Source of the DNA: Acidobacteriota bacterium | GTDB taxonomy: Bacteria; Acidobacteriota; Terriglobia; Terriglobales; SCQP01 | Assembly (NCBI GenBank): GCA_004299485.1 | Contig: SCQP01000008.1 | Location: 1-64,000 of the forward strand | Direction: 5' to 3' | Length of the DNA: 64,000 nucleotides | In this document: one piece after another, positions 17,001 to 40,493 of the stretch | Layout of the letters: every line of letters starts with the position of its first letter | Position numbering within the stretch: position 1 is the stretch's first letter | Notes under the pieces: model-generated | What the model saw: only the letters and a program-made list of their open reading frames with translations | Databases searched by the model: none | What the model was told of the DNA's origin: nothing | Program-made: the position numbers and the translations under genes

Positions 17001-20000
17001 CCGAAGAGGTGGCGTAGGTCTCACTGATCGCATCCGTGCCCACCAGCGCCCCGCTCACCGTACTGGTGTACGAAGGCGTCGCGCCGTAGGCGACCGAGAT
17101 GTTAGCCGCGGTGATGGTCAGCGGAACCGGTGCAGCGGTCAAGTTTACGGTGATCGCGGCCGGGGTCGAGTAGTTGCTGCTGGCCGCCTGGGACGCCGTG
17201 ACCGAGAACGTGCCCGCCTTGGTCACCGTCAGTGTGGTCGTGCTCCCCGAAGTTGCGACCCTGGCCGCGCCGGTGCCGTTGGTCACCGCAAAGGTGATGG
17301 ACACGTTCGGGATGCCGCCCGAGGCCGAGAGCGCGACCGAGCTGCCGTAGCTTAGCGGGACCATGGGGCCGGCGAAGACGATGGCCGGGGCCGTCGCCGT
17401 CGTGACCGTCAGCGTGCCGGTCTTATTGGTGATGTCGTAGTTCGACAGCAGCGTGTTCGTACCCGCCACCGCGGCGGGCGTGATGGTGAAGGTGCTGCCC
17501 GCCGCGCTCGTGGTAGAGTACGTGCCGTTGGCCGAGGAGGTGGTGTAGGTCTCACTGATCGCATCCGTACCCACCAGCGCCCCGCTCACCGTGCTGGTGT
17601 ACGAAGGCGTCGCGCCGTAGGCAACCGAGACGTTAGCCGCAGTGATGGTCAGCGGAACCGGTGCAGCGGTCAAGTTTACGGTGATCGCGGCCGGGGTCGA
17701 GTAGTTGCTGCTGGCCGCCTGGGACGCCGTGACCGAGAACGTGCCCGCCTTAGTCACCGTCAGCGTGGTCGTGCTGCCCGAGGTGGCGACCGTCGCGGCG
17801 CCGGTGCCGTTGGTCACCGCGAAGGTGATGGGCACGTTCGGGATCCCGCCGCTCGCGCTGAGGGCAACTGAGCTGCCATAGCGGAGCGAGGTTGTCGGGC
17901 CGGTGAAGGTTATGGCAGAGGCGGTCGCCGTCGTCACCGTCAGCGTGCCGGTCTTAATCGCGATGTCGTAGTTGCTGAGCAGAGTGTTCGTGCCGCCAAC
18001 CGCGGTGGGCGTGATGGTGAAGCTCGTGCCCGCCGCGCTCGTGGTCGAGTACGGACCATTCGCCGAAGAGGTGGCGTAGGTCTCACTGATCGCATCTGTA
18101 CCCACCAGCGTGCCGGTCACCGTGCTGGTGTACGAAGGCGTCGCGCCGTAGGCAACCGAGACGTTAGCCGCAGTGATGGTCAGCGGCACCGGAGCGGCGG
18201 TGATGGTCACCGCGACGGGCGTGGCAGCGGTGTAGTCGGTGTTGCCCGCTTGCGAGGCGGTCACGGTGAAGGTACCGGCTTTGGTTGCGGTTAACGTGGT
18301 CACGCCATTGACAGTGGCTAAGGCCGCGGTACCGGTGCCGTTGGCGACCGCGAAGGTTACCGGGAGCTGTGAGCTAGTGGTAGCGCTGAGGATCTGATGA
18401 TCGCCGTAGAGCATGGAGGTGGACGGCGAGAAGTTCGTGGTCTGGGAGCCCTGGGTGACGGTAAGCGTGCCGGGCTGGAGGGTGATGGTGTAGTTGGAAA
18501 GCAGCGTGCCGGTTCCCGCGACGGCGGTGGGGGTGATGGTGAAGGTGCCGGGCGCGCTGGTGGTGGTGTAGGGGGCCTGATTGACGGTGGAAAGCGCGGC
18601 GTAGGTCTCGGTGATCGCATCCGTGCTCACCAGCGTGCCGGTGACGGTGCTGGTGTACGAAGGCGTTGCGCCATAGGCAATGGACTCGCTCCTGGCCGCG
18701 ATGGTGAGCGCCACCGGAGCGGCAGTGAGCGTCACGGTGACCGGGGTCGCAGCAAGGTAGTTGGTGTCGCCGGCCTGGGAGGCGGTGACGGAGATGCTGC
18801 CGGCTGCGGTCGCGGTCAACGTGGTCACGCCGTTTGCCGTGGCGATGGTGGCGCCGCCGCTGGTGCTGAAGGTGACCGGCTGGGTCGAGCCGCCGCCGGT
18901 GGCGTGGAGCTGTACGGAGCCGCCGTAGTTGAGCGGGGTGGTGGGCGCGGTGAAGCTGATCGTCTGGGTGGCTTTATTGACGGTCAGCGCGCCGGTCGCG
19001 ATGGTGAGGTCGTAGTTCGACAGCAGCGTGTTAGCGCCGGCAACGGCGGTGGGCGTGATGGTGAAAGTGCTGCCGGCGGAGCTGGTGGTGGTGTAGACAC
19101 CGTTGGCGGACGAAGTGGCGTAGGTCTCGGTAATCGCGTCGTTGCCGACGAGCGAGCCGGTCACGGTGCTGGTATAGCTGGGCGTACCGCCGTAAGTCAC
19201 CGAGACACTGGCCGCCGTGATCGTCAATGGGACGGGGGCGGCGGTGATGGTCACGGTGACCGGCTTGGCGGCGGTATAGGAGCTGCTGCCGGTCTGCGAA
19301 GCGGTGACGTTGATGGTGCCGGCCTTGGTGGCGGCCAGGGTGGTGACGCCGCCGGTGGTCGTGAGCGTACCCGTGCCGGTGCCGCCGGCGGCGATGGCGT
19401 AGGAGACGGGCAGACCGGAGCTGGCGGTGGCGGCGAGCGTGACCGAGCTGCCGTAGAGGAGACCGGCAGGGTTGGGGAAGGTAATGGTTTGCGTGCCGCC
19501 GGTAACGGAGCCGGTGAGGGTGACGGACTGCGAGACCGTGGCGTTGAGCGAGTTGTCGGCGAGCGTGGCGGCGCCGGTGTAGCTGCCGGCAGGGGTGGTG
19601 GCGCCGAGGGTGACGGCTTCGGTGCAGGCCAGGCCGGAGGCAAGCGAGGTCGAGCAGTTGGTGGCGGCGGCGTTCTGGCTGAAGCCGGTGCCGGAAATGG
19701 CGACGCTCGTCAGGTTGAGGACGGCATTGCCGGAGTTGGAGACGGAGAACGTACCCTGGCCCGCGGTGCCGTAGCTGGTGCTGAGCGAGACGGTGGCGAT
19801 GGGCAGGGTGGTGGTGCTGGAGCGCTCGATTTCGACGACTTCGTTGGCGGCGAGATTGGCGTAGTAGATGTTGCCAAAGCCATCGATGGTGAGGCCGGCA
19901 AGCGAAGTTGCCGGAGTCAGGCCGGTGACGAGCGTCGCCTTGGTGCCGCTCGGGAAAATTTCGGTGAGCGTGCCGGCGCCGGAGTCGAGGGCGTAGACAT

Positions 20001-23000
20001 CGCCGGCGGCGTCCACCGCAAGGCTGAGCGGACCGGTGAAGCCCGTGGCCAGCGCCGTCGGGCTGGTGGCGCCGGCGGCAAGTTTTTCTACAGCACCCGA
20101 GCCGGGGAAATAAAGATTGCCGGAGGCGTCGGCAACGATCGAGGTGAGATTGGCCCCGAGGCCAGTGACGGTGGCCGGAGCAGAGCAGCTCGAGTTCATT
20201 GCGCAGGCGGCCGCGAGGCTTTGCGCGGTGTTGTTGCCGGCGTAGACGATGCCGCTGCCGGTGACGGCAACGGCGATGGGCACGGTGTTCGCGCCGAAAT
20301 GCTGGAGCGGCGTGAGCTTGCTGGTCCCGGTGGCGAGGCCCTCAACCAATCCGCTGCCCTGGTCGGCGACGTAGAGATTGCCGGCGCCGTCGACGGCGAT
20401 GCCGGAGGGTTTGGACCAGGAACCGGCGGAAATCTGCGTCTGGCAGTTGCTGGTGCACTGCGCCGGATTCTGCTGCTCAAGGACGGTGGCGTGGACGGGG
20501 TCGGTGAGGTACAGGTTGCCGCCGCCGTCAAGGGCGAGGCTGGAGGCATCGACGTTGGTGGCGACGACGACGGGCGCGGGCGTGGGCACATCGACGGTCA
20601 CCAGCGGGGCGGTGGCCATGCGGCTGATGTAGAGGGTGTGCGTGCCGGTGTTGGTCGTGACAGTGACCGCGCCGGCGCGCAAGCCGGGCGCGGCAGGCTT
20701 GAAGTCGACCATCACGGTGCAAGCGGCGTTCTGATAATTGGCGCCGGTGGCGCAGGCGCCGGCGCCGGTATCGGAAGGATCGCGGGTGAAGTCCTGACCG
20801 GTGGCGCCGAGGGTGGTAACCGTGATGCTGCTGACGGTTTCGCGGGAGGTGCCGAAGGAGAAGTCGGCGATCTGGACCACGCCAGCGCTGCCGCTCTGGC
20901 CGCTGGCGGAAGACTGGCCGACGGCGATGGCGGGCGCGGCGACATAGATCGTTGCGATCGCGGGGGCGAGATTGGTTTCGCTGGTGTCGGTGGCGGTGAG
21001 GGTGTAGATGCCGCCGTTGGTGACGGTACCGAGGGTGATGGGCTGGCCGGCGGTGCCGGTGGCGGTGAGGGTCTGGCCGCTGCCGGTGACGGTGACAGTG
21101 ATGCCGTCGGAGCCGGTGATGATGTTGCCGGCGGCGTCTTCGACCTGGACGGTGATGTTGCCGAGCGGCGCGGGGGCAGTGAGGCCGGCGGGCAAGGTGC
21201 TGGTGAAGGCGACCTTCGCGGCGTTGTCGACGCCGTTGCCGTTGCCATTCAAGGGCAACACGTGGGGCGACGGACGGGTGTTGTCGGTGATGGTTTCGGT
21301 GGCGGAGGCGGCGCCGGGAATGCTGGGAGTGAAGGTGGCGAGGAATTCGCAGGCCGTGCCCGGATTCACCGGTGAGGCGGTGGAGCAGCCGTTGCTGGCA
21401 GCGGGCGCGAAGGAAAAGACGCTGGGATCGTTGCCACCGAGTTGCAGGCTGGAGACTTGCAGGTTCAGGTTGCCGGCATTGGCCATGGTGACGGAAACCT
21501 GGGAATTGGGATTGCCCTGAGTGACGTTGCCGAAGATGATGCTGGGCGCGGAGCGGGTGACTTTCTCGACGGTATTCGTGTTGGTGCCGGAGAGCAGGCC
21601 GCCGGTGCGGACGAAGTCGTCGTAGTAGACGTTGGCGGAACTGTCGAACAGGGGCGCGAAGACGAAGTGGCCGCTGGGCGCCTGGGCGATGACGGTCTGG
21701 CTGGCGTCGGGCCGGATCTCATAGATCTGAACGGTAGCGTTGGAGGCCAGGAGCAAATCCCCGGCGGCATCGGTGCCGAGGCCGGAGTAGCAGAGCAGCG
21801 AGCCCGGGCCGGGGCTGGGAACGACTTTGGAATCGGAGCCGCTGGCGGAGATCTTGAATACATTGCAGACGCCGTCGCTGGCGAACAGATTGCCCGCGGC
21901 GTCGGCGGTGACGAGCGCGGCGCCGTAGGGCAGCACGTCGCTGGCGATCTGCTGCAGGGTGTTGGAGCCGGGCGCGGCTTTGAACAGGCCGGCGAAGAGG
22001 TCGGCGACGTAAACGTTGCCCTGACCGTCGGCCGCGATACTGCTGAGCCAATGGCCGGACCAGAGGTTGACTTGCGCGACGGTGGTGTAGTCGGCCGAAC
22101 TTAAGGTTCCGTTTTCGTTGGGGACCTCGTAGACGGCGTCGGGATAGAGGAGATAGAGATTACCGGCGCCGTCGAGCGCGACGCCCTGGATCGGCAGGCC
22201 CCAGGTGTTGATGTTGGCGCCCAGAGCGATGGGATTAGAAGTATTGATCGCGCCGCCGGGCGAGGAGGGTTGGAGCTCGGTCACATCGTTGCCACGCAGA
22301 TCGGCGACGAACATGTCACCGGCCGGATCGAGGGCGAGCTGGACGGGGGCGAGCTGGAGCGTGGAGTTGTCGAAGGCGGGCTGGACGGGATCGGGCACGG
22401 GCGCGGTATCGAAGGTGGTGAGAGCGCCGGTGCCGGTCTGGCTGAGGTACTGCGTCTGCAGGGCGTGGTTGTTGGCGTCGAAGAGGACGACAGCGCCGGC
22501 GCGCGGACCGACCGCGGTCTGCTGGAAGTCGACAATGACGGTGCAGCTCTGGCCCGGGCTGTAGGTCTTGAGGATGCAAGTGCCCGGTGTGGAGGTGTCA
22601 CGGGTGTAATCCATGCCGGTGACGCCCTGGGTGTAGACCTGGATGGCGGCGACGGCGGCGGTCTGCGAGAACGTGAAGGTGAGCGGCGGAAGCGTGATCT
22701 TCGGCGGCGGTGGCATGTGCGAGCCGCCGCTGCCGGGCGCGGAGACGGTGATCGTGACCTGGGCGGAAGTGACTTCGGGATTGGTGGAGTCGGAGACGGT
22801 GATGCTGTAGGCGCCGGCGACGGGAAGCGAGACGCCGGTGAGATCGAGGGTGGCCGAGCCGTTGACCGCGGCGACGGCAGCCAGGGTGTGGGTGAAGCTG
22901 CTGGGGCCGGAGAGGACGGCGACGAGGCTATCGGTGCTGGTGGTCTGGTGGCCGTTGCTGTCTTCGAGCAGGACGGTGAGCGAGGGCAGAGCGGAGGTCG

Positions 23001-25731
23001 TCGCAGCGGGCGGAGCCGGACTGAAGACGAGCTTGGTGGGCTGCGTGGCGGTGGTGGTTCCGGTGAGGGCGACAGACTGGGGCGAGTTGGGGGCGTTATC
23101 GGTGAGCGAAAGCGTGCCGCTGACGGAACCCACGGTTGTGGCGGCGGTGTAGGTGACGTCGAGACTGCAGGTGGCGGCGGCAGCGAGCGTGTTGCCGGAA
23201 GAGGCCGTGCAGGCTTGCGCGTCATGCGCGGCGGCAAGAGCGAAGCCGGCGCCGCTGACCGTGAGGGCGGAGAAATTGAGCGGTTGGTTACCGGCATTGC
23301 GCAGCACCGCGGTACCGGCGGGGCTGGTGGAGTTGACGACGGCGCTGAGGGGAGCCATCGCGGTGGAAGAGGTGAGCGCCTGCAGACCCTGGGTGCCGTT
23401 GCTGTCGGCGATGCTGACGTAAACAGTGCCGTCCTGGCCGATGGCGACGCCCGCGGGCGCTTTGCCCTGATAGACGGTGGAGACGGTTTGGGAAGCGGGC
23501 GAATAGAGCCGGACGCGGTCGTTACCCTGATCGGCGATGTAGACATCCCCGGCGGCATCGACGGCGAGGGCGCTGGCCTGATTGAACAGCGCGCTGGCGG
23601 CAGCGCCATCGGCGAAGCCGGCGGTAGTCGAGCCGGCGAGGGTGACGACGGATTGGGTCGCGGCGATCCATTCCTCGAGCTGGGCGCCGTTGTGATTGAG
23701 GAAGTAGAGATCGCCCTGGGTATCGGCGGCAAGCGCGCCCGGGTGATCGAGCTGGACCACCAGCGTGGTAATGGCGCCGCTGGAGGCAAAGACCTTGCGA
23801 ATGTTGTTGTTGCCGCTATCGCTGATGAAGAGGTTGCCGAAGGGTCCGGCGGCGACGGCCGCGGGCGCATTCAACTGGGCGCTGAGGGCGGGGCCAAGGT
23901 CACCCTTGTTGCCGGACTTGCCGTTGCCGGCATAGGTCACGATGTTCCCGGTGGCGGCGCTGACTTCGCGCACGGCGTGGTCGCCGGTGTCGGCGATGAA
24001 GAGATTTCCGGCGGCGTCGGCAGCGAGGGCGCTGGGGTTCTGGAAGCTGGCGGCAGAGGCGGGACCGCCGTCGCCGCCGGAGCCGGGGCCGTTGTAAGCG
24101 CCAGCGATGCCGGAGCCGGCGAAGCTGGCTTGAGAGTGGGACTGGAGCTTGTAGTCGTAGACGGGCTGCGTGCTCCCGCCCGGGCGGGCGAGGACGAAGA
24201 GATTGCCGAAGCCGTCGGTGGCGAGAGCGCCGGCGAGGCTGGGGATGTTTTCGCCAGGCAACGTAGCGGCCTGCGGCGGCTGGATCATGACTTCGGGGCC
24301 GAGTCCGATGCCGGTGAGCGGGAAGCTGACGGGGTTCTGGCCGTTGTCGGAGATGGTGACCGCGCCGGTCTGCAGGCCGGCGGCGCTGGGTGTAAAGGTG
24401 ATGGGGACGAGGCAGACGGTGCCGGCGGGATTGCCGCCGTTGAAGCTGAAGCCCCAGACCTGCGCGCCGAGCGTACAGCCCTGCACCGTGCTTAGGGTGA
24501 AACCGTTGCCTGTGACGGTGATCTGGGTAGCCCTCTGGGAGGCGGTTAGCTGAATGGCAAGGGTTTGCGAGGCGCTGGCCGCGCCGACGGCCGTCGCGGG
24601 GAAATCGCCGCGGGCGGTAATTTCACGGATGGTGCCGGTGCTGCTGCCGGCGTCGGACACGAAGAGATCGCCGGCAGGACCGATAGCAAGCGCGGAAGCG
24701 TTGAGGAACTCGGCCTGGGAAGCGAGGCCGCCATCGCCCTGCCCGGCGCGGCGGGCCTGATTGCCGTCGCCGGCGAGGGTGACGATGACGCCCGTGGAAG
24801 CGTAAACTTCGCGGATATCGAGGCCGTTGTTTTCGGCGATGTAGAGGTTGCCGGCGCTATCGGCGGTGATGGCCCGGGGGCCGTACAGGTAGGCGCTGGT
24901 GGCGGGACCACCGTCGCCGTTGTTGGAGGAGTTATTGTTGTTGCCGTTGTAGTTTTGGCCGTGATTGTCGTCGTCGCCCTTGCCGCCCTTGCCGTTGCCG
25001 CCGCCACTCGACTGATTGAGCTGGCCGGCGACGATCTGGAGCTTGCCGCCGGCGAGTTTGGCGACGATTTCGTTCTGAACCAGTGCGATATAGATATTGC
25101 CGGCGGCATCGGTGGCAACGCCCGAGGGTTGCAGGCGGAGATCGGTGGCTTGCTTGCTCTTGATGGTGCCGTTGCTTAGGGCGGAGGGACCGCCGCCGGC
25201 GATGACCTGAGGGGCGCCGGCGCCGGGGATGCCGTTGGCGGCAGCGATCTCGAAGACTTCGGTGCTGGTGGCGAAGAGGAGATCGCCGTCGGGATCAATG
25301 GCGAGTGCGAGCGCGGGCGCACCCGAGGAGGTCGAGGCGAGGGCGCTGACGGCGCCGGCGGGGGTGACTTTCCAGATTTTATTGGCGGTCGCGTCGGCGA
25401 CGTAGAGGTTGCCCTGGCGGTCGGTGGCGAGGGATTGGGCGGAGGCGATGGAGGAGCCGGAAGCGACCGGGCTAAGTTGGCCGGTGAGGCGGTTGTAGGA
25501 CCAGAGGAACTGGCCGGCAGTGCGGGTGGATCCGGAAAAGTAGATGTTGCCGCCGGCATCGAGGGCGACGCCCCCGCTGGGGGTGAAAGTAGACGGCGCA
25601 GGCAGGCTGAGAACAGTCGGGACCGCCAGCGCAGGGGACTGCGCGGACGCAAGGGGCAAGCCGAGCGCAAGAGTGCACGCCAGCGACATTGCCAGGGTCA
25701 GGAGGGGGGAGCCTGATCGGCGCATACACAT
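11005..25731 (-). CDS. giant secreted NHL / choice-of-anchor / MBG Ig-like repeat protein (4,908 aa)
   Basis: One open frame of 14.7 kb. The N-terminal signal peptide (RRSGSPLLTLAMSLACTLAL ... ASAQ) follows an ATG at 25731 or 25725. The first ~2,000 residues mix NHL/YVTN-type propeller repeats (DAAGNIYIA, DGSGN-like) with ASPM/choice-of-anchor-D Ig-like domains (TCSLDVTYTA, NCGSTLA). The middle ~1,600 residues are about nine near-identical modules, each an MBG domain (LTITAANVSVAYG ... GTLVGTDAISETY) plus an Ig-like partner, then one divergent copy. More choice-of-anchor-D domains follow. Near the C-terminus are a TM helix, a basic run (DERRRRW), a second hydrophobic segment ending SVACGG, and a Pro/Asn/Lys-rich tail. 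Probably a surface filament or adhesin; that role is inference. No homologous enzyme domain is visible. Confidence 0.9.
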   Translation of the reverse strand: MCMRRSGSPLLTLAMSLACTLALGLPLASAQSPALAVPTVLSLPAPSTFTPSGGVALDAGGNIYFSGSTRTAGQFLWSYNRLTGQLSPVASGSSIASAQSLATDRQGNLYVADATANKIWKVTPAGAVSALASTSSGAPALALAIDPDGDLLFATSTEVFEIAAANGIPGAGAPQVIAGGGPSALSNGTIKSKQATDLRLQPSGVATDAAGNIYIALVQNEIVAKLAGGKLQIVAGQLNQSSGGGNGKGGKGDDDNHGQNYNGNNNNSSNNGDGGPATSAYLYGPRAITADSAGNLYIAENNGLDIREVYASTGVIVTLAGDGNQARRAGQGDGGLASQAEFLNASALAIGPAGDLFVSDAGSSTGTIREITARGDFPATAVGAASASQTLAIQLTASQRATQITVTGNGFTLSTVQGCTLGAQVWGFSFNGGNPAGTVCLVPITFTPSAAGLQTGAVTISDNGQNPVSFPLTGIGLGPEVMIQPPQAATLPGENIPSLAGALATDGFGNLFVLARPGGSTQPVYDYKLQSHSQASFAGSGIAGAYNGPGSGGDGGPASAASFQNPSALAADAAGNLFIADTGDHAVREVSAATGNIVTYAGNGKSGNKGDLGPALSAQLNAPAAVAAGPFGNLFISDSGNNNIRKVFASSGAITTLVVQLDHPGALAADTQGDLYFLNHNGAQLEEWIAATQSVVTLAGSTTAGFADGAAASALFNQASALAVDAAGDVYIADQGNDRVRLYSPASQTVSTVYQGKAPAGVAIGQDGTVYVSIADSNGTQGLQALTSSTAMAPLSAVVNSTSPAGTAVLRNAGNQPLNFSALTVSGAGFALAAAHDAQACTASSGNTLAAAATCSLDVTYTAATTVGSVSGTLSLTDNAPNSPQSVALTGTTTATQPTKLVFSPAPPAATTSALPSLTVLLEDSNGHQTTSTDSLVAVLSGPSSFTHTLAAVAAVNGSATLDLTGVSLPVAGAYSITVSDSTNPEVTSAQVTITVSAPGSGGSHMPPPPKITLPPLTFTFSQTAAVAAIQVYTQGVTGMDYTRDTSTPGTCILKTYSPGQSCTVIVDFQQTAVGPRAGAVVLFDANNHALQTQYLSQTGTGALTTFDTAPVPDPVQPAFDNSTLQLAPVQLALDPAGDMFVADLRGNDVTELQPSSPGGAINTSNPIALGANINTWGLPIQGVALDGAGNLYLLYPDAVYEVPNENGTLSSADYTTVAQVNLWSGHWLSSIAADGQGNVYVADLFAGLFKAAPGSNTLQQIASDVLPYGAALVTADAAGNLFASDGVCNVFKISASGSDSKVVPSPGPGSLLCYSGLGTDAAGDLLLASNATVQIYEIRPDASQTVIAQAPSGHFVFAPLFDSSANVYYDDFVRTGGLLSGTNTNTVEKVTRSAPSIIFGNVTQGNPNSQVSVTMANAGNLNLQVSSLQLGGNDPSVFSFAPAASNGCSTASPVNPGTACEFLATFTPSIPGAASATETITDNTRPSPHVLPLNGNGNGVDNAAKVAFTSTLPAGLTAPAPLGNITVQVEDAAGNIITGSDGITVTVTGSGQTLTATGTAGQPITLGTVTNGGIYTLTATDTSETNLAPAIATIYVAAPAIAVGQSSASGQSGSAGVVQIADFSFGTSRETVSSITVTTLGATGQDFTRDPSDTGAGACATGANYQNAACTVMVDFKPAAPGLRAGAVTVTTNTGTHTLYISRMATAPLVTVDVPTPAPVVVATNVDASSLALDGGGNLYLTDPVHATVLEQQNPAQCTSNCQTQISAGSWSKPSGIAVDGAGNLYVADQGSGLVEGLATGTSKLTPLQHFGANTVPIAVAVTGSGIVYAGNNTAQSLAAACAMNSSCSAPATVTGLGANLTSIVADASGNLYFPGSGAVEKLAAGATSPTALATGFTGPLSLAVDAAGDVYALDSGAGTLTEIFPSGTKATLVTGLTPATSLAGLTIDGFGNIYYANLAANEVVEIERSSTTTLPIATVSLSTSYGTAGQGTFSVSNSGNAVLNLTSVAISGTGFSQNAAATNCSTSLASGLACTEAVTLGATTPAGSYTGAATLADNSLNATVSQSVTLTGSVTGGTQTITFPNPAGLLYGSSVTLAATASSGLPVSYAIAAGGTGTGTLTTTGGVTTLAATKAGTINVTASQTGSSSYTAAKPVTVTITAAPVPLTITAASVSVTYGGTPSYTSTVTGSLVGNDAITETYATSSANGVYTTTSSAGSTFTITPTAVAGANTLLSNYDLTIATGALTVNKATQTISFTAPTTPLNYGGSVQLHATGGGSTQPVTFSTSGGATIATANGVTTLTATAAGSISVTASQAGDTNYLAATPVTVTLTAAPVALTIAARSESIAYGATPSYTSTVTGTLVSTDAITETYAALSTVNQAPYTTTSAPGTFTITPTAVAGTGTLLSNYTITLQPGTLTVTQGSQTTNFSPSTSMLYGDHQILSATTSSQLPVTFAVANGTGTAALATVNGVTTLTATKAGTFTVTASQAGNTDYTAATPVAVTITAAPVPLTITAANVSVAYGATPSYTSTVTGTLVGTDAISETYATSSANGPYSTTSAAGTSFTITPTAVGGTNTLLSNYDIAIKTGTLTVTTATASAITFTGPTTSLRYGSSVALSASGGIPNVPITFAVTNGTGAATVATSGSTTTLTVTKAGTFSVTASQAASSNYSTPAAITVNLTAAPVPLTITAANVSVAYGATPSYTSTVSGALVGTDAISETYTTSSANGTYSTTSAAGSTFTITPAAVAGTNTLLSNYDITNKTGTLTVTTATAPAIVFAGPMVPLSYGSSVALSASGGIPNVSITFAVTNGTGAARVATSGSTTTLTVTKAGTFSVTASQAASSNYSTPAAITVNLTAAPVPLTITAANISVAYGATPSYTSTVSGALVGTDAISETYATSSANGAYTTTSAAGTSFTITPTAVGGTNTLLSNYEITLKTGTLTVTTATAPAITFTGPTTSLSYGSSVALSASGGIPNVPITFAVTNGTGAATVATSGSTTTLTVTKAGTFSVTASQAASSNYSTPAPVTVPLTAAPVPLTITAANISVAYGATPSYTSTVTGTLVGTDAISETYATSSANGAYSTTSAAGSSFTITPTAVAGVNTLLSNYDVTVKTGTLTVTTATAPAITFTGPTTSLRYGSSVALSASGGIPTVPITFAVTNGTGSARVATSGSTTTLTVTKAGTFTVTASQAASTNYSTPAAITVNLTAAPVPLTLTAANVSVAYGGTPAYTSTVTGTLVGSDAITETYTTSSANGSYTTTSAAGTTFTITPAAVAGTNTLLSNYAITIKTGTLTVTTATAPAIVFTGPSGPLSYGSAVQLSATGGIPNVPITFAVTNGTGAATIATASGTTTLTVTKAGTFTVTASQAASANYTAPAAVTVNLTAAPVALTITAADVSVAYGGTPAYTSTLTGTLVGTDAISETYTTSSANGPYTTTSAAGTTFTTTPAAVAGTGTLLSNYAITIKSGTLTVTTAAAAAISFTGPSGPLSYGSTVTLSASGGIPNTPITFAVTDGTGAATITTTGGTTTLTVTRAGTFSVTASQTASANYRAPASVTVNLTAAPVALTITAANVSVAYGGTPAYTSTVTGTLVGSDAITETYTTSSANGPYTTTSAAGSTFTITPKAAAGNGTTNLANYTITYQTGTLTVTTATAAAIVFTAPAQSLSYGGSVALSASGGIPNVPITFAVPAGQGTITPGPTDTATLTASVAGTIEVTASQAASANYKAPSPVTVPVTAAPAVLTATAQNATRIFGASNPSFSTVITGFVNGDTQSVVHGTVQWTTTAGPTSDVGQYPITAGSEGLNAANYTFHYVGGTLQITQAAQTVNFSSIPNHAQQDQPFSIQASATSGLPLTFTITGPATISGNTVTLTGATGTVAITASQAGNNDYTAAPSVTQSFTVGQGVFLSTADLNFGSVQIDQVSIAQTIFVTNSSDRAISALPQIPPGFTYNGDCSASLGPNRSCSVNVSFAPTAIGPANGTVVIMGMQVTVAGIGTQPGLEVGPTDMIFGSQLVGSVSPTQTLTVTNNGSANLVLAPVTISGDFQETSQCSTTRVLRPGDSCLVSVSFAPSTKGDRSGTLTVTSRDGSLSAQAALSGTGTVPSAVNGAILNPANLFFGGEPVNQPSQAQTITVTNPNANDALAISSITASGDFSEVTNCPQSLPANGVCVINVTVTPSTVGSRTGTLTVNDNIGSHIVALSALGQAATAAVSPTHLAFGSQPIPGSNLTYNGTAQIATLANTGSAALAIKSISVTGDFTQTNTCGSTLAANSSCTIAITFAPSALGHRTGTLTITDNAGGASSQQQVAVEGNGSVNGLVLAPPLLRFGTVPVGQTSESQTSTLTNGTGQPITGLTITASGEFSETDNCGSTLANGASCQVTVTLTPAISGAATGSITFNGSFNNTSGAPGGTETVSNFFAESYEMPHMEPARYVIGAASTSSSLGFRVQPRVLAEMNAMLAATRTRREASLPLFATLNDLATVALSGSGSSTTANKSAPSLHASPGIMSWSAGEAIGHSGTAQTITITNSGQQALTGMVISSSAEFPITANQCGSVLVGGASCSISVAFQPSSTGPRAGTLSIAGGGGVSDQVPLNGTGSDFTIAAAGGAPLLSAGSSVQIPLSLNSIAGDQQTITMTCSVSGGATCSVAPASVSIGGPAAVIAQLTVTSSAASVPWPGAGNGRWPWAVAAAALVALALCFLLADADERRRRWKAAMIAGALTFSVACGGLGNPETAKKEEQNSMLSASAMTATVNAVSSTGMMHNVTLTIPVGGLQVRNHNQQDQNQGQNPAGTTTPPPASNVPNTSVIPAEPEKSSTPAVTSNPAAPGAKLAQNCVETKKGAETKAPSEASKNGQDKNKPANNCPPVAPKAKKPPGSPGGGGSDSGLRARL
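14470..19240 (-). repeat. tandem MBG/Ig-like repeats with exact 531-bp period
   Basis: The motif CGCCGTAGG (antisense of the VAYGG/VAYGA segment) starts at 14958, 15489, 16020, 16551, 17082, 17613 and 18144, each 531 bp (177 codons) apart. The next anchors, at 18669 and 19188, are 525 and 519 bp further. Sequence between anchors is nearly identical over hundreds of bases, with third-position and scattered amino-acid differences. This is recent tandem duplication inside the gene, prone to copy-number change and assembly collapse. Confidence 0.92.
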
Positions 25732-32829: not shown

Positions 32830-34839
32830 ATGAGAACGAAGCGATGGGTGCGGCGCGTGGCGTTGAGCGCGGCCGGGATGGTGGGTGCGGCGTTGCTGGT
32901 CACGAGCGCGGGAGCGCAGTTTCCCACCGCGATCGAGCGGCTGCGGGCGCAGCGCGAAGCGGTCGAGAAGCAGCTCGAAAAAGTGGCCATCATTGACCGG
33001 CGCGTGATGATCCGCATGCGCGACGGCAAGGAAGTGATGGCCGACATTTACCGGCCGAAAACACAGGCCAAGGCCCCGATCATCTTCGTGCGGACGCCGT
33101 ACAACTTCAATTTCTGGGACGTGCGCAACGGCACCTACGCCGACATGAGCCGCCAGCTCTACGCGGTCGAGCACGGCTACGCGTATGTCGAGATCGAGGA
33201 GCGCGGGCACTTTTTCTCGCAGGGCAACTACGACATCCTGGGGCCGCCGCTGTCGGATTCGGCCGATGAAGTGAATTGGATGACGACGCAGCCCTGGTCG
33301 AACGGCAAGCTGGGAACGACCGGCTGCTCCTCCACGGCGGAATGGCAATCGGCGGCGGTAGCGCAGGACATTCCCGGCTGGACGACCTTCAACGTGCAGG
33401 GCTTTGGGGCCGGCGTGGGGCGCGTAGGCCCGTACTACGAGCAAGGCAACTGGTATCGCGGCGGCGCGGTGCAGATGCTGTTCATTGACTGGCTCTACGG
33501 CGAACAGAACCAGGTGCGGCCCGCGTTTCCGCCCAACACCCCCCAGGCGGACCTGATCCGCGCCTCCAAAATGTTCGACCTGGCGCCGCAAATGCCGCCG
33601 GTGGACTGGTCGCAGGCGCTGTGGTATTTGCCCGAAGAGGACATTATTAAGCACGTGGATGGACCGCCGGGCATCTTCGGCAGCCACGTCGGCGGCATCG
33701 CCACCGGCGGCGACATGATCGCCCGCACGCCCAACTCGCCGCAGTGGACCAAAGGCGGGCTGTGGAACGACAGCATGACGATCCGCAAGCCCGGACTGTG
33801 GTTCATGAGCTGGTTTGACGTCTCGGTCTCGCCCAACCTGGCCGAGTACAACTTTGTGCGGCGCACCGCGCCCGCGCCGGTCAATGACGAGCAGTACGCC
33901 ATCATTGCGCCGGTGTTGCATTGCGCCTACACCCGCGCCACGCAGAACACCATGATCGGCGACCTGAGCGTGGGCGACGCGCGGCTCGACTATAACGACA
34001 TTATCTACCAGTGGTTCGACCATTTCCTCAAAGACCAGCACGACGGCGCGCTGCAGCGCCCGCGGGTGCTGTATTACCTGATGGGGAAGAACGTTTGGAA
34101 GCAATCGCCGTCGTGGCCGCCCCCGGGCGTAAGCACCCAGACGTTGTACTTCAGCAGCGGTGGCCACGCCAACACCCTGCACGGCGACGGCGCGCTGACG
34201 CCGGCACCGCAAGCCAGCGACCACCCCGACGGTTACCTCTATGACCCGGCGCATCCGGTGCTGACCTTCGGCGGCGGCGGCTGCTGCGAGGGCAATGCGG
34301 TGAAGTTCGGCTCGTACGACCAGGACGAGCATGAGATGCGCAATGACATTCTGGTATACAACTCCCAGCCCTTCACCACCGGAACCGAAGTCAGCGGGCC
34401 GATCACGGTGACGCTGTATGTGTCCTCGAGCGCGAAAGATACCGACTTCACCTTCAAGGTCATGGATGTGTACCCGGATGGCCGCGCCTTCAACATCACC
34501 GAAAACATCCAGCGCATGCGCTGGCGCGACGGCTACAACCACGCGCCGGTGTGGATGCAGCCGGGACGCGTCTATAAGGTTACCTTCCAGCCCATCGACA
34601 CCAGCTATTACTTCTTCCCCGGCCACCGGTTGCGAATTGCGCTCTCCAGCAGCAACTTTCCGCGCTTTGACCGCAACCTGAACACCGGCGGCAACAACTA
34701 TGACGAAGCCCGGGGCGTGATTGCGCACAACGCCATCCATCACGACGCCGAATACCCCTCCAGCGTCACGCTCACGGTGCTGCCCGCGCGGGCAGCACGG
34801 CCAACGCTCGCCTTCGGCGGCAGCTTGAAGGAGCCCTGA
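32830..34839 (+). CDS. CocE/NonD family hydrolase (X-Pro dipeptidyl-peptidase S15-like)
   Basis: 669 residues with a signal peptide ([20 protein letters not shown] ... AGAQ) and GGGGAG before the ATG. Residues ~55-330 form an S15-type alpha/beta-hydrolase core ([26 protein letters not shown] with a candidate nucleophile Ser167 in G-C-S). The C-terminal ~200 residues match the jelly-roll domain of the X-Pro/cocaine-esterase family ([38 protein letters not shown]). The usual nucleophile context is G-x-S-Y-x-G, and the usual segment before it is D-x-R-G-x-G-x-S. Here they read GCSSTA and [12 protein letters not shown], so this is a divergent member. The last residues (GSLKEP) and the stop codon come from a 105-bp dispersed repeat. 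Likely a periplasmic esterase or peptidase. Confidence 0.85.
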
Positions 34840-34924
34840 GCGCCAGCGGACGGACCCTGCCGAGAATCGAAGCCCGCACTCCAAGCGACCAACGGGAGCG
34901 ACCAGGGCAAATAGTGGCGAGCCA
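34820..34924. repeat. 105-bp dispersed repeat, copy 1
   Basis: Starts GCAGCTTGAAGGAGCCCTGA and ends with GGCAAATAGTGGCGAGCC plus one base. It overlaps the 3' end of the CocE-like gene and supplies its stop codon (34837-34839). It differs from copy 3 at about six positions. It lacks terminal inverted repeats. Confidence 0.88.
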
Positions 34925-34955
34925 CCGGCCGTAGTCGCAGAATGCAGGTGAGGGA

Positions 34956-35031
<76 letters not shown>

Positions 35032-35242: not shown

Positions 35243-35271
35243 ACGCGGGGGCCGCACGTTGGCACCTGGCG

Positions 35272-35376
35272 GCAGCTTGGAGGAGCCCTGAGCGCCAGCG
35301 GGTGGACGCTGCCGGGAACCGAAGCCCGGACCCCAGGCGACCAACGGGAGCGACCCGGGCAAAAAGTGGCAAGCCA
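35272..35376. repeat. 105-bp dispersed repeat, copy 2
   Basis: Same length and orientation as copy 1, starting GCAGCTTGGAGGAGCCCTGA. It is the most divergent copy, for example ACCCGGGCAAAAAGTGG where copy 1 has ACCAGGGCAAATAGTGG. With copy 1 it brackets the tRNA-Phe gene and the integrase remnant as direct repeats 452 bp apart. Confidence 0.88.
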
Positions 35377-35409
35377 CTTCTTACCGCGCCGTATCCGCTA
35401 GTTAGCAGA

Positions 35410-35444: not shown

Positions 35445-38400
35445 GTGTGTCCACATGACAGTGTGAATTGTGTCCGGCGGAGATTGCCGCGACTCAGACG
35501 GGTGGCGCTTGTTGGAATGCTCTTTCCCGTGATCGCGACCGCGGCGCGAGCGCAGACAGCCCAGTTCACCAGCGCGCAGAGCACCATCGGCAGCGGCCTG
35601 AACTCCCCCTTTGACGTGGCGGTCGACGGCAGCGGCAACGTCTATATCGCCGACTCCGGCAATAACCGCGTGCTGAAGGAGACGCTCTCCGGCGGCAGCT
35701 ACACGCAGAGTACGGTGGCCGACGCGAGTACCAATGGTCTAAATTCTCCCACTGGCGTCGCGGCGGACGGCAGCGGCAACGTCTATATCGCCGATAACAA
35801 CAACAACCGCGTGCTGAAGGAGACGCTCTCCGGCGGTACCTACACGCAAAGCATCATCGCCAGCGGTTTGTTCAATCCCATTAGCGTGGCGGTGGACAGC
35901 AGTGGCAACGTCTATATCGTCGACCCCGGCAATAACCGCGTGCTGAAGGAGACGCTCTCCGGCGGCAGCTACACGCAGAGTACGGTGGCCAACGCGAGTA
36001 CCAATGGTCTGAATTCTCCCACTGCCGTGGCGGTGGACGGCAGCGGCAACGTCTATATCGCCGATAACGGCAACAGCCGCGTGCTGAAGGAGACGCTCTC
36101 CGGTGGCGCCTACACGCAAAGCACCGTCGTCAGCGGCGTGGGCCCTCTCGATGGGGTAGCGGTGGACGGCAGCGGCAACGTCTATATCACCGAATACACC
36201 TTGAACGTCGTGCTGAAAGAGACGCTCTCCGGCGGCAGCTACACCCAGAGTACGTTGGCCGACGCGAGCATGAATGGTCTGAACACTCCCGCAGGCATGG
36301 CAGTGGACAACAGCGGCAACGTCTATATCGCCGATGACGGCAACCACCGCGTGCTGAAGCTGCAGTTCGCCGCGGTGGATTTCGGTTCGGCGGCCATCGG
36401 CGCCAATGCCGCAGTCACGTTCGCCTTTACCTTCACAAACTCTACGGCCGCAACCATCGGCACGCCGGTGGTGCTGACCCAGGGCGCGACCGGGCTGGAC
36501 TTTGCCGACGCCGGCACGGGAAGCTGCGACACCAACGGCACCAGCCACAGCTACATCTCCGGCAACACCTGCACGGTAGCCGTGAACTTCAATCCACAGT
36601 ACGCGGGCGCGCGCGACGGCGCGGTGGAGCTGACCAACAGCTCCGGCGCGGTCATCGCCACGGCCTACGTTTATGGCGCGGGAACAGGACCGCAGGTGAC
36701 GTTTGCGCCGGCCGTACAGAGCACAGTGTTCGACAATGCCACAAACGGCCTGAGTCAACCCTACAACCTGGCGGTGGGCGGCAGCGGCAATGTCTATATC
36801 GCCGATGCCGCTAACAACCGCGTGCTGAAAGAGACGCTCTCCGGCGGCCTCTACACCCAGACCACGGTCGCCAGCGGCCTGAACTCTCCCCAGGGTGTAG
36901 CCGTGGACGGCAGCGGCAATGTCTATATCGCCGATACCTTCAACAACCGCGTGCTGAAGGAGACGCTCTCCGGCGGCAGTTATACACAGAGCACGGTGGC
37001 CGACCTGAGTACAAATGGTCTGCAACAGCCCTTTGCCGTAGCGGTGGACGGCAGCGGCAATGTCTATATCTCCGATTCCCTCCGCAACCGCGTGCTGAAA
37101 GGGACGCCCTCCGGCGGCAGCTACACATCGAGCACCGTCGTCAGCGGCCTGGGCATTCTCGCCGGCATAGCGGTGGACGGCAGCGGCGACGTCTATGTCG
37201 CCGATGACACCAACAACGTCGTGCTGAAAGAGACGCCCTCTGGCGGCAGCTACACACAGAGTGTGGTGGCCGACGCGAGTACGAATGGTCTGAACGCTCC
37301 CGAGGGCCTGGCGGTGGACGGCAGCGGCAACAACGTCTATATCGCCGATTACAACAACAACCGCGTGCTGAAGGAGACGCTCTCCGGCAGCAGCTACACC
37401 CAGACCACGGTAGCCGGCAGCCTGAACCAGCCCATTGGCGTGGCAGTGGACGGCAGCGGCAACGTCTATATCGGCGATAGGGGTCTCAGCAAGGTGCTCC
37501 TGGAAGACGTGGCGACACCGCCGTCACTCAGCTTCGCGAGCACCGTCGTGTATTCCGGCAACAGCAGCGACAGCCCGAAAACAGTGACGCTGAGCAACAT
37601 CGGCAATGCCACGCTGAACTTCCCGTTGCCCACCACCGCCGGCGCCTTTAACCCCAGCGTAAGCGCGAACTTTACCTGGGACAGCCGGTCGTCCTGCCAG
37701 CAGACAAACTCCGGCACGGGAACCGCCTACACATTGCAGACCGGCGCGAGCTGCACGGTCGCGATTGATTTTGCTCCGGCGATCGTAGGCAGCAGCATCC
37801 CGGGCAGCGTGACGCTCACCGACAACACGCGCAACAACCTGGGCGTGACGCCACCCGCCAACGCCACGCAGACGATTAGCCTGAGCGGCGCAGCCACCCA
37901 GGCCAGCCAGACCATCACCTTCGCCAACCCCGGCACGCAGACCTACGGCGCCTCGCCCACCCTGGCTGCGACGGCCAGCTCCGGACTGGCGGTGAGCTTC
38001 ACCTCGGCCACGGCCAGCGTCTGTACCGTCACCACCGGCGGCGCGCTGAGCGTGGTCGCCCTCGGCACATGCACCATGGACGCCAACCAGGCGGGCAACA
38101 CGGACTACACCGCAGCGCCCACGGTTTCGCAGTCGTTTACGGTGGCGATGGCGACGCCCTCCGTGACGGCTTGGCCGGCGGCTAGCGCCATCACCTATGG
38201 GCAAACGCTGAGCGCATCCCATCTGACCGGCGGCTCGGTGAGCAACAACGGCAGCATCGTACCCGGCACGTTCGCCCTCGTGACGCCAACGGCCGCGCCC
38301 GGTTCCGGCACCGCCTCCGAGAGCGTGATCTTCACCCCCACCGACACGACCGATTACACAACCGTAACCGGCTCCGTCAACGTCACCGTCAACCCCGCTC

Positions 38401-40493
38401 CGCTGACCATCACCGCCGCGAACGCCACCATGACCTACGGCGGGACATTACCCTCCGTCACCTCCACCATCGCCGGCCTCGTGAATGGCGATACGTCGAG
38501 CGCCCTCGGCGCCATCACCTGCTCCGCTTCCACCACCACCCTCAAAACCACCTGCTCCGGCGCAGTTGACGCCAACTACACCATCACCTACGCGAGCGGC
38601 ACGCTCACCGTCAACCCCGCTCCCCTGACCATCACCGCCGCGAACGCTACCATGACCTACGGCGGCAGCGCGCCCTCCGTCACTGCGACCATCTCCGGCC
38701 TCGTGAATGGCGATACGTCGAGCGCCCTCGGCGCCATCACCTGCACCGCCTCCACCACCACCCTCAAAACCACCTGCTCCGGCGCAGTTGACGCCAACTA
38801 CACCATCACCTACGCGAGCGGCACGCTCACCATCACCCCCGCTCCCCTGACCATCACCGCGTCCAACGCGACCATGACCTACGGCGGCAGCGTACCCTCC
38901 GTCACTTCGACCATCTCCGGCCTCGTGAACGGCGATACATCGAGCGCCCTCGGCGCCATCACCTGCTCCGCCTCCACCACCACCCGCAAAACCACCTGCT
39001 CCGGCGCAGTTGACGCCAACTACACCATCACTTACGCGAGCGGCACGCTCACCGTCAACAAGGCAACCCTAACCGTAACGGCAGCGCCGGTCTCCATCGC
39101 CTATGGCAGCGCCGTTCCCGCCTTCTCGCCCAGTTACAGCGGCTTCGTCAACGGCGACACCGCGGCCAGCGCGCTCACCGGCGCGCCCACGCTCACCACC
39201 ACGGCAACCAGCAAGAGCGGCGCCGGAACCTACCCCATCGCCGCCGCTGCCGGAACACTGGCTGCGGCCAACTACAGCTTTACTTTCGCCGGCAGCACGC
39301 TGACCGTCACACCCGCGGCCCAGACCATCACCTTCAGCACCATCTCCACGCAGGCCTACGGCGCCGCGCCGCTCACCCTGGCCGCCACCGCCAGCTCGGG
39401 GCTGCCAGTAACCTTCGTACTGGTCTCCGGTCCGGCAACGCTTTCTGGCGATACGCTCACCCTCACCGGCGGCGGCACGGTCGCCACCGAGGCCACGCAG
39501 GCCGGCAACAACGACTACCAGGCGGCCACGCCGGTCACGCGGACGTTCCTGGTCACCGCACCCGGACTTACAATCTCCCCCTCCACGCTCGCCTTCGGTG
39601 GCGAGCTCACCGGCTCAACCAGCGCCGCCCAGACCGTGACGCTGACCAACACCGGAACCTCGACGCTAACCATTGCCTCCCTTGCGGCCAGCGGCGGCTT
39701 CGCCGAAACCAGCGGCTGCGCCGCCACCCTCGCCGCCGGTGCGCACTGCACCGCGCAGGTGACCTACACGCCGGCCGTCGTGGGCAGCAGTAGCGGCGCG
39801 CTCACGGTGACTACCAACGCCAGTCCGGCCACGGCCACCGTGGCGCTCAGCGGCTCGGGAGAGAATCTGCTGCTGGCGCCCGGCGCCAACCCACCGCCCA
39901 TCGTCACGCCCGGCCAGCCGGCGCTGTTCGCCCTGAGCATCACGCCCTCCGGCGGCCTCACCGGGGGCGTTGGGCTCGCCTGCGCCGTAAAGCCGGCCAC
40001 CCAGGTAAGCTGCTCGCTCGCCCCCACGAGTCTGACGCTCAGCGGCGCCAGCCCGGAGACGATTTCCGTGGTCGCCAATACCGCCGCCGGCGCGGCCGGC
40101 TGGGCGCTGCCCGGCGCCCCAGGCTCACCCAACGCTTGGCTGCAGCTTGGAGGAGCCCTGAGCGTCAGCGGGCGGACCCTGCCGGCAATCGAAGCCCGCA
40201 CTCCAAGCGACCAACGGGAGCGACCAGGGCAAATAGTGGCGAGCCCCTGGCCGCTCTGGATGCTGGCCGCCCTCGCTCTACTCGCGGGCCTCGCTTTCGC
40301 GCTGCGCCGCCGCCGCAGCCACTGGGCCGCCCTGGTTTTTGGCGCCGCCCTCCTGCTGGCCGCCTGCGGCACGCCTCCCGCCGCGCTCAACCCCAGTGCC
40401 GGCAGCACACCTGCCGGCAACTACGTCCTAACCGTCACCGCCACCGCCGCCGGCGGCAGCCGCACCGCCCAGCTCCCCTTCACCGTCCGCTAA
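35445..40493 (+). CDS. secreted NHL-repeat / choice-of-anchor / MBG-domain protein (1,682 aa)
   Basis: A signal peptide follows a basic leader (RRRLPRLRRVALVGMLFPVI ... ARAQ). The start is GTG at 35445 or 35463. About 13 NHL blades follow in two groups (VDGSGNVYIADSGNNRVLKE, then TLSGGSYTQSTV), with a choice-of-anchor-D domain between them. Next come three MBG repeats of 74 residues (LTITAANATMTYGG ... SGAVDANYTITYASGTLTV), a fourth divergent MBG, and Ig-like domains. The C-terminus has a TM segment (WPLWMLAALALLAGLAFAL), a basic run (RRRRSHW), a second hydrophobic segment ending LAACG, and a final Ig-type strand. A 105-bp repeat is embedded in frame just before the first TM. Probable cell-surface protein; the role is unknown. 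Confidence 0.88.
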   Translation: MCPHDSVNCVRRRLPRLRRVALVGMLFPVIATAARAQTAQFTSAQSTIGSGLNSPFDVAVDGSGNVYIADSGNNRVLKETLSGGSYTQSTVADASTNGLNSPTGVAADGSGNVYIADNNNNRVLKETLSGGTYTQSIIASGLFNPISVAVDSSGNVYIVDPGNNRVLKETLSGGSYTQSTVANASTNGLNSPTAVAVDGSGNVYIADNGNSRVLKETLSGGAYTQSTVVSGVGPLDGVAVDGSGNVYITEYTLNVVLKETLSGGSYTQSTLADASMNGLNTPAGMAVDNSGNVYIADDGNHRVLKLQFAAVDFGSAAIGANAAVTFAFTFTNSTAATIGTPVVLTQGATGLDFADAGTGSCDTNGTSHSYISGNTCTVAVNFNPQYAGARDGAVELTNSSGAVIATAYVYGAGTGPQVTFAPAVQSTVFDNATNGLSQPYNLAVGGSGNVYIADAANNRVLKETLSGGLYTQTTVASGLNSPQGVAVDGSGNVYIADTFNNRVLKETLSGGSYTQSTVADLSTNGLQQPFAVAVDGSGNVYISDSLRNRVLKGTPSGGSYTSSTVVSGLGILAGIAVDGSGDVYVADDTNNVVLKETPSGGSYTQSVVADASTNGLNAPEGLAVDGSGNNVYIADYNNNRVLKETLSGSSYTQTTVAGSLNQPIGVAVDGSGNVYIGDRGLSKVLLEDVATPPSLSFASTVVYSGNSSDSPKTVTLSNIGNATLNFPLPTTAGAFNPSVSANFTWDSRSSCQQTNSGTGTAYTLQTGASCTVAIDFAPAIVGSSIPGSVTLTDNTRNNLGVTPPANATQTISLSGAATQASQTITFANPGTQTYGASPTLAATASSGLAVSFTSATASVCTVTTGGALSVVALGTCTMDANQAGNTDYTAAPTVSQSFTVAMATPSVTAWPAASAITYGQTLSASHLTGGSVSNNGSIVPGTFALVTPTAAPGSGTASESVIFTPTDTTDYTTVTGSVNVTVNPAPLTITAANATMTYGGTLPSVTSTIAGLVNGDTSSALGAITCSASTTTLKTTCSGAVDANYTITYASGTLTVNPAPLTITAANATMTYGGSAPSVTATISGLVNGDTSSALGAITCTASTTTLKTTCSGAVDANYTITYASGTLTITPAPLTITASNATMTYGGSVPSVTSTISGLVNGDTSSALGAITCSASTTTRKTTCSGAVDANYTITYASGTLTVNKATLTVTAAPVSIAYGSAVPAFSPSYSGFVNGDTAASALTGAPTLTTTATSKSGAGTYPIAAAAGTLAAANYSFTFAGSTLTVTPAAQTITFSTISTQAYGAAPLTLAATASSGLPVTFVLVSGPATLSGDTLTLTGGGTVATEATQAGNNDYQAATPVTRTFLVTAPGLTISPSTLAFGGELTGSTSAAQTVTLTNTGTSTLTIASLAASGGFAETSGCAATLAAGAHCTAQVTYTPAVVGSSSGALTVTTNASPATATVALSGSGENLLLAPGANPPPIVTPGQPALFALSITPSGGLTGGVGLACAVKPATQVSCSLAPTSLTLSGASPETISVVANTAAGAAGWALPGAPGSPNAWLQLGGALSVSGRTLPAIEARTPSDQRERPGQIVASPWPLWMLAALALLAGLAFALRRRRSHWAALVFGAALLLAACGTPPAALNPSAGSTPAGNYVLTVTATAAGGSRTAQLPFTVR
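38403..39068 (+). repeat. three tandem MBG-encoding repeats, 222-bp period
   Basis: CTGACCATCACC recurs at 38403, 38625 and 38847, exactly 222 bp (74 codons) apart, with near-identical DNA between. The units encode LTITAANATMTYGG through YASGTLTVNPAP. Confidence 0.9.
40142..40246. repeat. 105-bp dispersed repeat, copy 3, inside a coding region
   Basis: Starts GCAGCTTGGAGGAGCCCTGA and ends GGCAAATAGTGGCGAGCC plus one base. At 105 bp (35 codons) it keeps the host frame open and adds about 35 residues (LQLGGALSVSGRTLPAIEAR, then TPSDQRERPGQIVA) before the C-terminal TM helix. The frame used here has no stop, whereas copy 1 in another frame ends a gene. Confidence 0.9.

Follow-up and report, generated by a model that had tools for sequence, protein, structure and literature searches.

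The window analysed here is a stretch of 64,000 nucleotides, namely positions 1-64000 of contig 8 in the source genome, an assembly of 3.30 Mb in 22 contigs that is 98.8% complete (G000 hereafter). A 5.5-kb part of this window contains three copies of a short repeat, all in one orientation as an earlier note on this DNA had reported, which are 92-97% identical to the genome consensus, copy 2 being the most diverged of the three (92.7%). The repeat touches two genes, one for a CocE-like protein and the other for a large NHL/MBG protein, and the features of the locus are as follows.

32830-34839, + strand: CocE-like ORF ending inside copy 1
34815-34925, + strand: copy 1 of the 111-bp unit, with the TGA stop of the CocE-like ORF inside
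35267-35377, + strand: copy 2 of the 111-bp unit, located between genes, some 70 bp upstream of the 1,682-aa gene
35445-40493, + strand: host gene for the 1,682-aa NHL/MBG protein with a C-terminal TM segment
40133-40136, + strand: target motif CNNN (here CGCT) of copy 3, in the flank aacgctt/GGC
40137-40247, + strand: copy 3 of the 111-bp unit, an in-frame insert that makes up codons 1565-1601 of the 1,682-aa gene
40140-40184, + strand: hairpin 1 region of copy 3 (coordinates by unit alignment)
40207-40222, + strand: order-wide core GCGACCAACGGGAGCG of copy 3 (hairpin 2)
40236-40247, + strand: 3' terminal hairpin of copy 3, GTGGCGAGCCCC (consensus GTGGC-GA-GCCAC)

The stop codon of the CocE-like ORF is indeed provided by copy 1, as the TGA at 34837-34839. 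Copies 1 and 2 flank a tRNA-Phe gene (34956-35031), and another pair of copies in G000 (C1:42692 and 42953; L014 1655-1744) flanks a tRNA-Ser gene. The window also contains, on the minus strand (11007-25731), an open frame of 4,908 aa whose repeats are related to the 1,682-aa NHL/MBG protein.

The unit had been described as 105 bp long, a value that has to be corrected now that copies have been extracted from G000 with their flanks, 99 of them full-length and another 15 partial or related. From the 99 copies and two empty sites, the unit is Y followed by GGCGGCAG and ends in GAGCCAC, amounting to 111 bp or 37 codons; the conserved stretch from GGCGGCAGC to GAGCCAC spans 110 bp, and the base preceding it is T or C in 97 of the 99 copies. 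Its ends pair only via TGGC/GCCA, in agreement with the previous statement that terminal inverted repeats are absent. When G000 was searched with a pattern taken from the middle part of the repeat, at least 114 matches appeared (43 on the forward and 71 on the reverse strand), whereas the reversed pattern, used as control, had none, and the repeat is thus not confined to the three places in the window. Copies of G000 are 0-9 bases off the consensus, with a mean pairwise difference of 6.2, and such low divergence implies that amplification has been recent or recurrent. Judged by sequence comparison, the repeat is a real, dispersed, mobile element.

Copy 3 lies in frame just before the C-terminal TM segment, as had been proposed, and adds 37 codons (WLQLGGALSVSGRTLPAIEARTPSDQRERPGQIVASP) instead of the 35 originally counted; the 37 codons sit between GSPNA and WPLWMLAALALLAG. 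Homologues of the 1,682-aa protein match both sides of the insert and have no inserted segment; they come from several other genera and share the same C-terminal layout. An insert common to orthologues of many lineages, or a repeat restricted to three places, had been named as what would speak against a mobile element, and the opposite was found on both counts. Around 12 copies of G000 lie inside intact-looking genes, to which they add 37 residues with the reading frame kept (a peptide from within the insert is, for example, TPSDQRERPGQK). For the M24 peptidase of creatinase type (C18:146114) the 37-residue gap is exact in 10/10 orthologues, and for an acyl-CoA synthetase (C14:150430) it is exact in comparison with one orthologue, L245 of genome G002. 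The other in-frame hosts are a GT2 glycosyltransferase, a MerA-like flavin reductase, ThiE, a hydrogenase maturation protease, a MacB/FtsX-type permease, an ArsR-like regulator and a 1,105-aa sortilin/YCF48-like protein. Two in-frame copies occur in the single gene for the latter protein (L103 7609-10923, minus strand), and two also in an acyl-CoA synthetase gene (L109 613-2604, minus strand), one at the N-terminus and one inside. Orthologues were compared across the insert for six proteins, with the gap being exact for the peptidase and the acyl-CoA synthetase and approximate for the flavin reductase, the sortilin-like protein, the glycosyltransferase and ThiE; for the remaining host genes the support consists of the intact ORF and the domain match. 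All 10 host proteins scanned have Pfam domains above cut-off beside or across the insert, among them M24 peptidase, AMP-binding enzyme, ThiE, GT2, Pyr_redox_dim and HycI. In the AlphaFold2 model of the M24 peptidase, residues 213-245 of the insert lie in a low-confidence loop, as expected for a segment without homologues, and the rest of the fold is modelled with confidence; the mean pLDDT is 81.4. Many other copies of G000 are intergenic.

Most in-gene copies use the two stop-free sense frames, and in the single copy that is read in the stop-containing sense frame the TGA is changed to GGA. The earlier note had drawn attention to a length that is a multiple of three and to several open frames. 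Both features hold for the 111-bp unit, with four to five of the six frames being open; this openness is, however, no greater than in base-shuffled sequence of the same richness in GC, and the idea that open frames are an adaptation was dropped on this ground. The more telling feature is the multiple-of-three length. Typical units measure 111 bp in G000, 108 bp in the families of G002 and G004 and likewise in those of G006 and G011, and 114 bp in those of G001 and G003, as well as in a second family of G000. They differ by indels of one to four bases at four places of the alignment, and yet the typical totals are all multiples of three, a rule that rests on four sequence classes and would have a probability of about 0.01-0.04 by chance. 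This is suggestive of selection that would keep the unit length divisible by three.

The site of insertion follows a simple rule. Of 99 copies, 89 have a C at the fifth base ahead of GGCG, with the bases between being nearly free, and the insertion point falls directly after 5'-CNNN^, a one-sided target; the same target C is found in 25/26 copies from six related genomes. The flanks of the 99 copies show no positional identity, and there is no target duplication, neither here nor at the empty sites. These sites, taken from other species and not from strains, include one in the M24 peptidase gene, where the orthologues of G002, G001 and G004 read CGCGGC-TTT/TTC across the site: Compared with them (L226, L236 and L228), the copy at C18:146114 has exactly 111 bp extra, with nothing duplicated or lost. 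The empty sites that the earlier note had suggested looking for are therefore present, and exact, in three orthologues.

G000 also has five short copies of 41 bp (C1:305002, 311434 and 361167; C2:63932; C16:329078), which share one start, at the internal CCAA^GCGACC site, and each follow a CNNN in their turn, as would be the case under one common cleavage rule. They look like a derived or minimal element. Several other copies are shortened at the 5' side and keep an intact 3' end; random 5' truncation of the LINE kind was considered and rejected, given that short copies mostly have one common start. Seventeen close pairs of copies occur in G000, in the same orientation with the exception of one partial copy, and seven close same-strand pairs are spaced 231-265 bp from start to start. 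A composite element enclosed by such pairs was rejected, since the intervening sequences are unrelated. The orientation of the copies is strongly tied to the local GC skew, with 93 of 114 lying on the C-rich strand, and more weakly to the strand of the neighbouring gene (59/102). Coding strands are C-rich here on average, but the skew is the better predictor, which speaks against a mere effect of gene orientation; the bias is suggestive, even if replication cannot be assigned from these data.

Three hairpins are supported by an alignment of 21 units, which were drawn from seven genomes. The 5' hairpin is bulged, with GGCAAC/GTTGCC or GGCAG/CTGCC outside and GACGCCC/GGGCGTC or GATGCC/GGCATC inside; a short middle hairpin surrounds the core, and the 3' terminal hairpin is formed by GTGGC/GCCAC or GCGGC/GCCGC. 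Pairing is found in 90.7% of the cells, a value that leans towards structure because the hairpins were drawn by eye from the alignment before counting; it falls to 30-48% when the partners are displaced by one to three bases. Covariation scores 0.169 versus 0.089 in shuffles, none of 500 reaching it, and RNAalifold alone recovers the first two hairpins. Folding both strands, as had been recommended, gave no excess stability: The predicted energy of single sequences is no better than that of shuffled sequence on either strand, and it is covariation only that supports the structure. The reservation of the earlier note about a palindrome was well placed, as the unit, instead of being one palindrome, comprises three distinct hairpins that covary. 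This structure may be active as single-stranded DNA or as RNA.

The relatives in which repeats of this kind occur are metagenome assemblies of Acidobacteria, and when GTDB genomes were scanned with the pattern of a related family, Acidobacteria only were retrieved. Species-specific families are found in seven genomes, the copies within a species being far more alike than those of the next species: genus-mates have diverged families of their own, with about 82% identity in G004 and 71-77% in G001 and G003, and others are present in G006 and G011. The second family of G000 (C12:62881, C12:65579 and C16:321042) is about 76% identical, 114 bp long and resembles the families of G001 and G003. Beyond the unit itself, a 14-base core is present 81 times in G000, and 58, 14, 47, 82, 56 and 30 times in G021, G022, G026, G028, G029 and G037, respectively, against 0-1 per sampled genome outside the order and none in the control. 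In G007, which belongs to another genus of the same family, the core is part of a longer high-copy element of more than 130 bp ending in GAGGCCGTGCCTC (L277, L255, L262). The assembly of G007 seems to be interrupted by this repeat, given that several of its contigs start some 93 bp ahead of the core. Genus g9 (L257, L260, L264, L267) often has the core, as CGACCAACGGGAG, in inverted doublets of REPIN-like layout, and doublets of this type are present also in genomes without a match to Y1 transposase (G022 and G037). The 111-bp unit thus appears to be one branch of a wider superfamily of repeats in the order.

How, then, could such a unit be moved? We estimate a probability of about 0.7 that it belongs to a group of small non-autonomous mobile elements of Acidobacteriota, in which one strand would fold into the three hairpins and, moved by an enzyme acting in trans, would enter the target in single-stranded form immediately behind 5'-CNNN, with neither duplication nor loss of target bases. 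Insertion in a gene would usually add 36-38 disordered residues and not destroy the gene: Genes would generally survive owing to a unit length divisible by three and to the openness of most frames, and copies would persist in them because 37 codons are added without frameshift. Copy 3 would represent one such lineage-specific insertion, and the best reading of its peptide is that it needs no function for the host. The combination of no target duplication or terminal inverted repeats, one-sided CNNN^ target, structured ends, GC-skew orientation and 41-bp copies makes the system akin to single-strand elements of the IS200/IS605 type, and we lean slightly towards an enzyme that acts on single-stranded DNA.

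Alternatively, the unit could be a REP/REPIN-type element moved by a RAYT, or Y1 tyrosine transposase, whose gene has been lost from G000 or missed in it. This would suit a structured unit without target duplication and with 5' target specificity; IS200/IS605-like logic would account for a 5' target. Y1_Tnp is present in two genus-mates and many members of the order, and the core GCGACCAACGGGAG occurs also in inverted doublets in genus g9. However, G000 has no Y1_Tnp candidate, although a multi-copy transposon could have dropped out of an assembly in 22 contigs, and the domain is equally unmatched in G001, G004, G022 and G037, in all of which the repeat or its core is present. Y1 gene numbers and the core repeat do not go together among relatives: those genomes with 8-12 such genes in which the core was counted have at most one copy, and no copy was found near the sampled Y1 genes of relatives. 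Considering also that the unit bears no terminal GTAG or CGTC tag and does not form inverted doublets in G000, we regard a RAYT as unlikely. Y2_Tnp, the transposase of IS91, is absent from G000 as well.

A retroposed RNA, that is, a bacterial SINE spread by target-primed reverse transcription, would be compatible with a covarying structure that could be RNA and with the 5'-shortened copies that keep their 3' end, but RVT_1 is absent from G000 and from every genus-mate searched, the start of the most frequent shortened form is one fixed base and not a random point, and neither a tail nor a target duplication is seen; this origin appears very improbable. Selection by the host for a regulatory RNA, a terminator or a useful peptide module copied by recombination could be invoked from the conserved hairpins, the many intergenic copies and a weak hairpin followed by a T-run on the antisense strand. 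Yet the insertions are species-specific at the sites checked and affect unrelated genes in different frames, and Rfam gave no match up to E = 1 for nine loci from five genomes, leaving this explanation an even slimmer chance. A classical MITE depending on a DDE transposase would agree with the size, copy number and non-autonomy of the unit, and in-frame fusions of MITEs to genes are known (PMC2229807); it is hardly credible, as the inverted repeat is limited to TGGC/GCCA and no target duplication appears in 99 copies or at empty sites. Returning to transposition of a hairpin-folded single strand, a bolder version of it, which we advance tentatively and hold to be somewhat doubtful, would see a gene-adapted lineage whose sequence changes across Acidobacteriota species, with bases gained or lost, while its length stays divisible by three, served by a single-strand enzyme that is neither a Y1 or Y2 HUH protein nor a reverse transcriptase and cuts after CNNN.

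Searches of the open-access literature yielded no description of the 111-bp repeat, which is best read as a new variant of coding-tolerant small mobile repeats; the likeness to coding-tolerant palindromic elements suggested by the earlier note is apt as far as behaviour is concerned. The closest parallel, the Rickettsia palindromic elements or RPEs (Ogata et al. 2000), are 105-150 bp long, dispersed and in frame in many unrelated conserved genes, and form long palindromes with terminal inverted repeats of about 12 bp (PMC2229807, PMC10969869). Our unit has a similar size, dispersal and in-frame insertion in several unrelated genes, but these descriptions of RPEs set it apart by its three separate hairpins, lack of terminal inverted repeats, CNNN^ target and presence in Acidobacteriota. 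REP/REPIN sequences are likewise small structured repeats of high copy number, sometimes inside ORFs (PMC3116915, PMC3733652), and CGTC-REPs without associated transposase offer a precedent (PMC3733652). The 111-bp unit shares these properties, and differs in not being 20-40 bp long, in lacking both inverted doublets and a Y1 transposase in G000, and in its tags, GTAG being absent from the consensus unit and CGTC only internal in some related families. Non-autonomous elements derived from IS200/IS605 have neither terminal inverted repeats nor target duplications, insert directly 3' of a short target and show subterminal hairpins and strand bias. All this applies to the present unit, with its short conserved target; however, TnpA is missing in G000, the target is reduced to CNNN and no autonomous copy was found. 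MITEs such as Correia/NEMIS and ERIC are non-autonomous elements of 100-200 bp, some of which are fused in frame to genes (PMC2229807). They have terminal inverted repeats and target duplications, in contrast to our unit, which has neither.

Mobile DNA inserting in frame into conserved proteins is mainly known from intracellular bacteria, Rickettsia and Wolbachia. The present unit shows the same in-gene behaviour in Acidobacteriota. Its near-identical copies number more than 100, its empty sites are exact and its target is defined, which makes questions dating back to the Rickettsia work testable: how such elements move, how proteins tolerate them and whether new peptides enter proteins in this way. 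If the unit length is truly kept at a multiple of three, it would provide direct evidence of a selfish element that has evolved to be harmless in genes.
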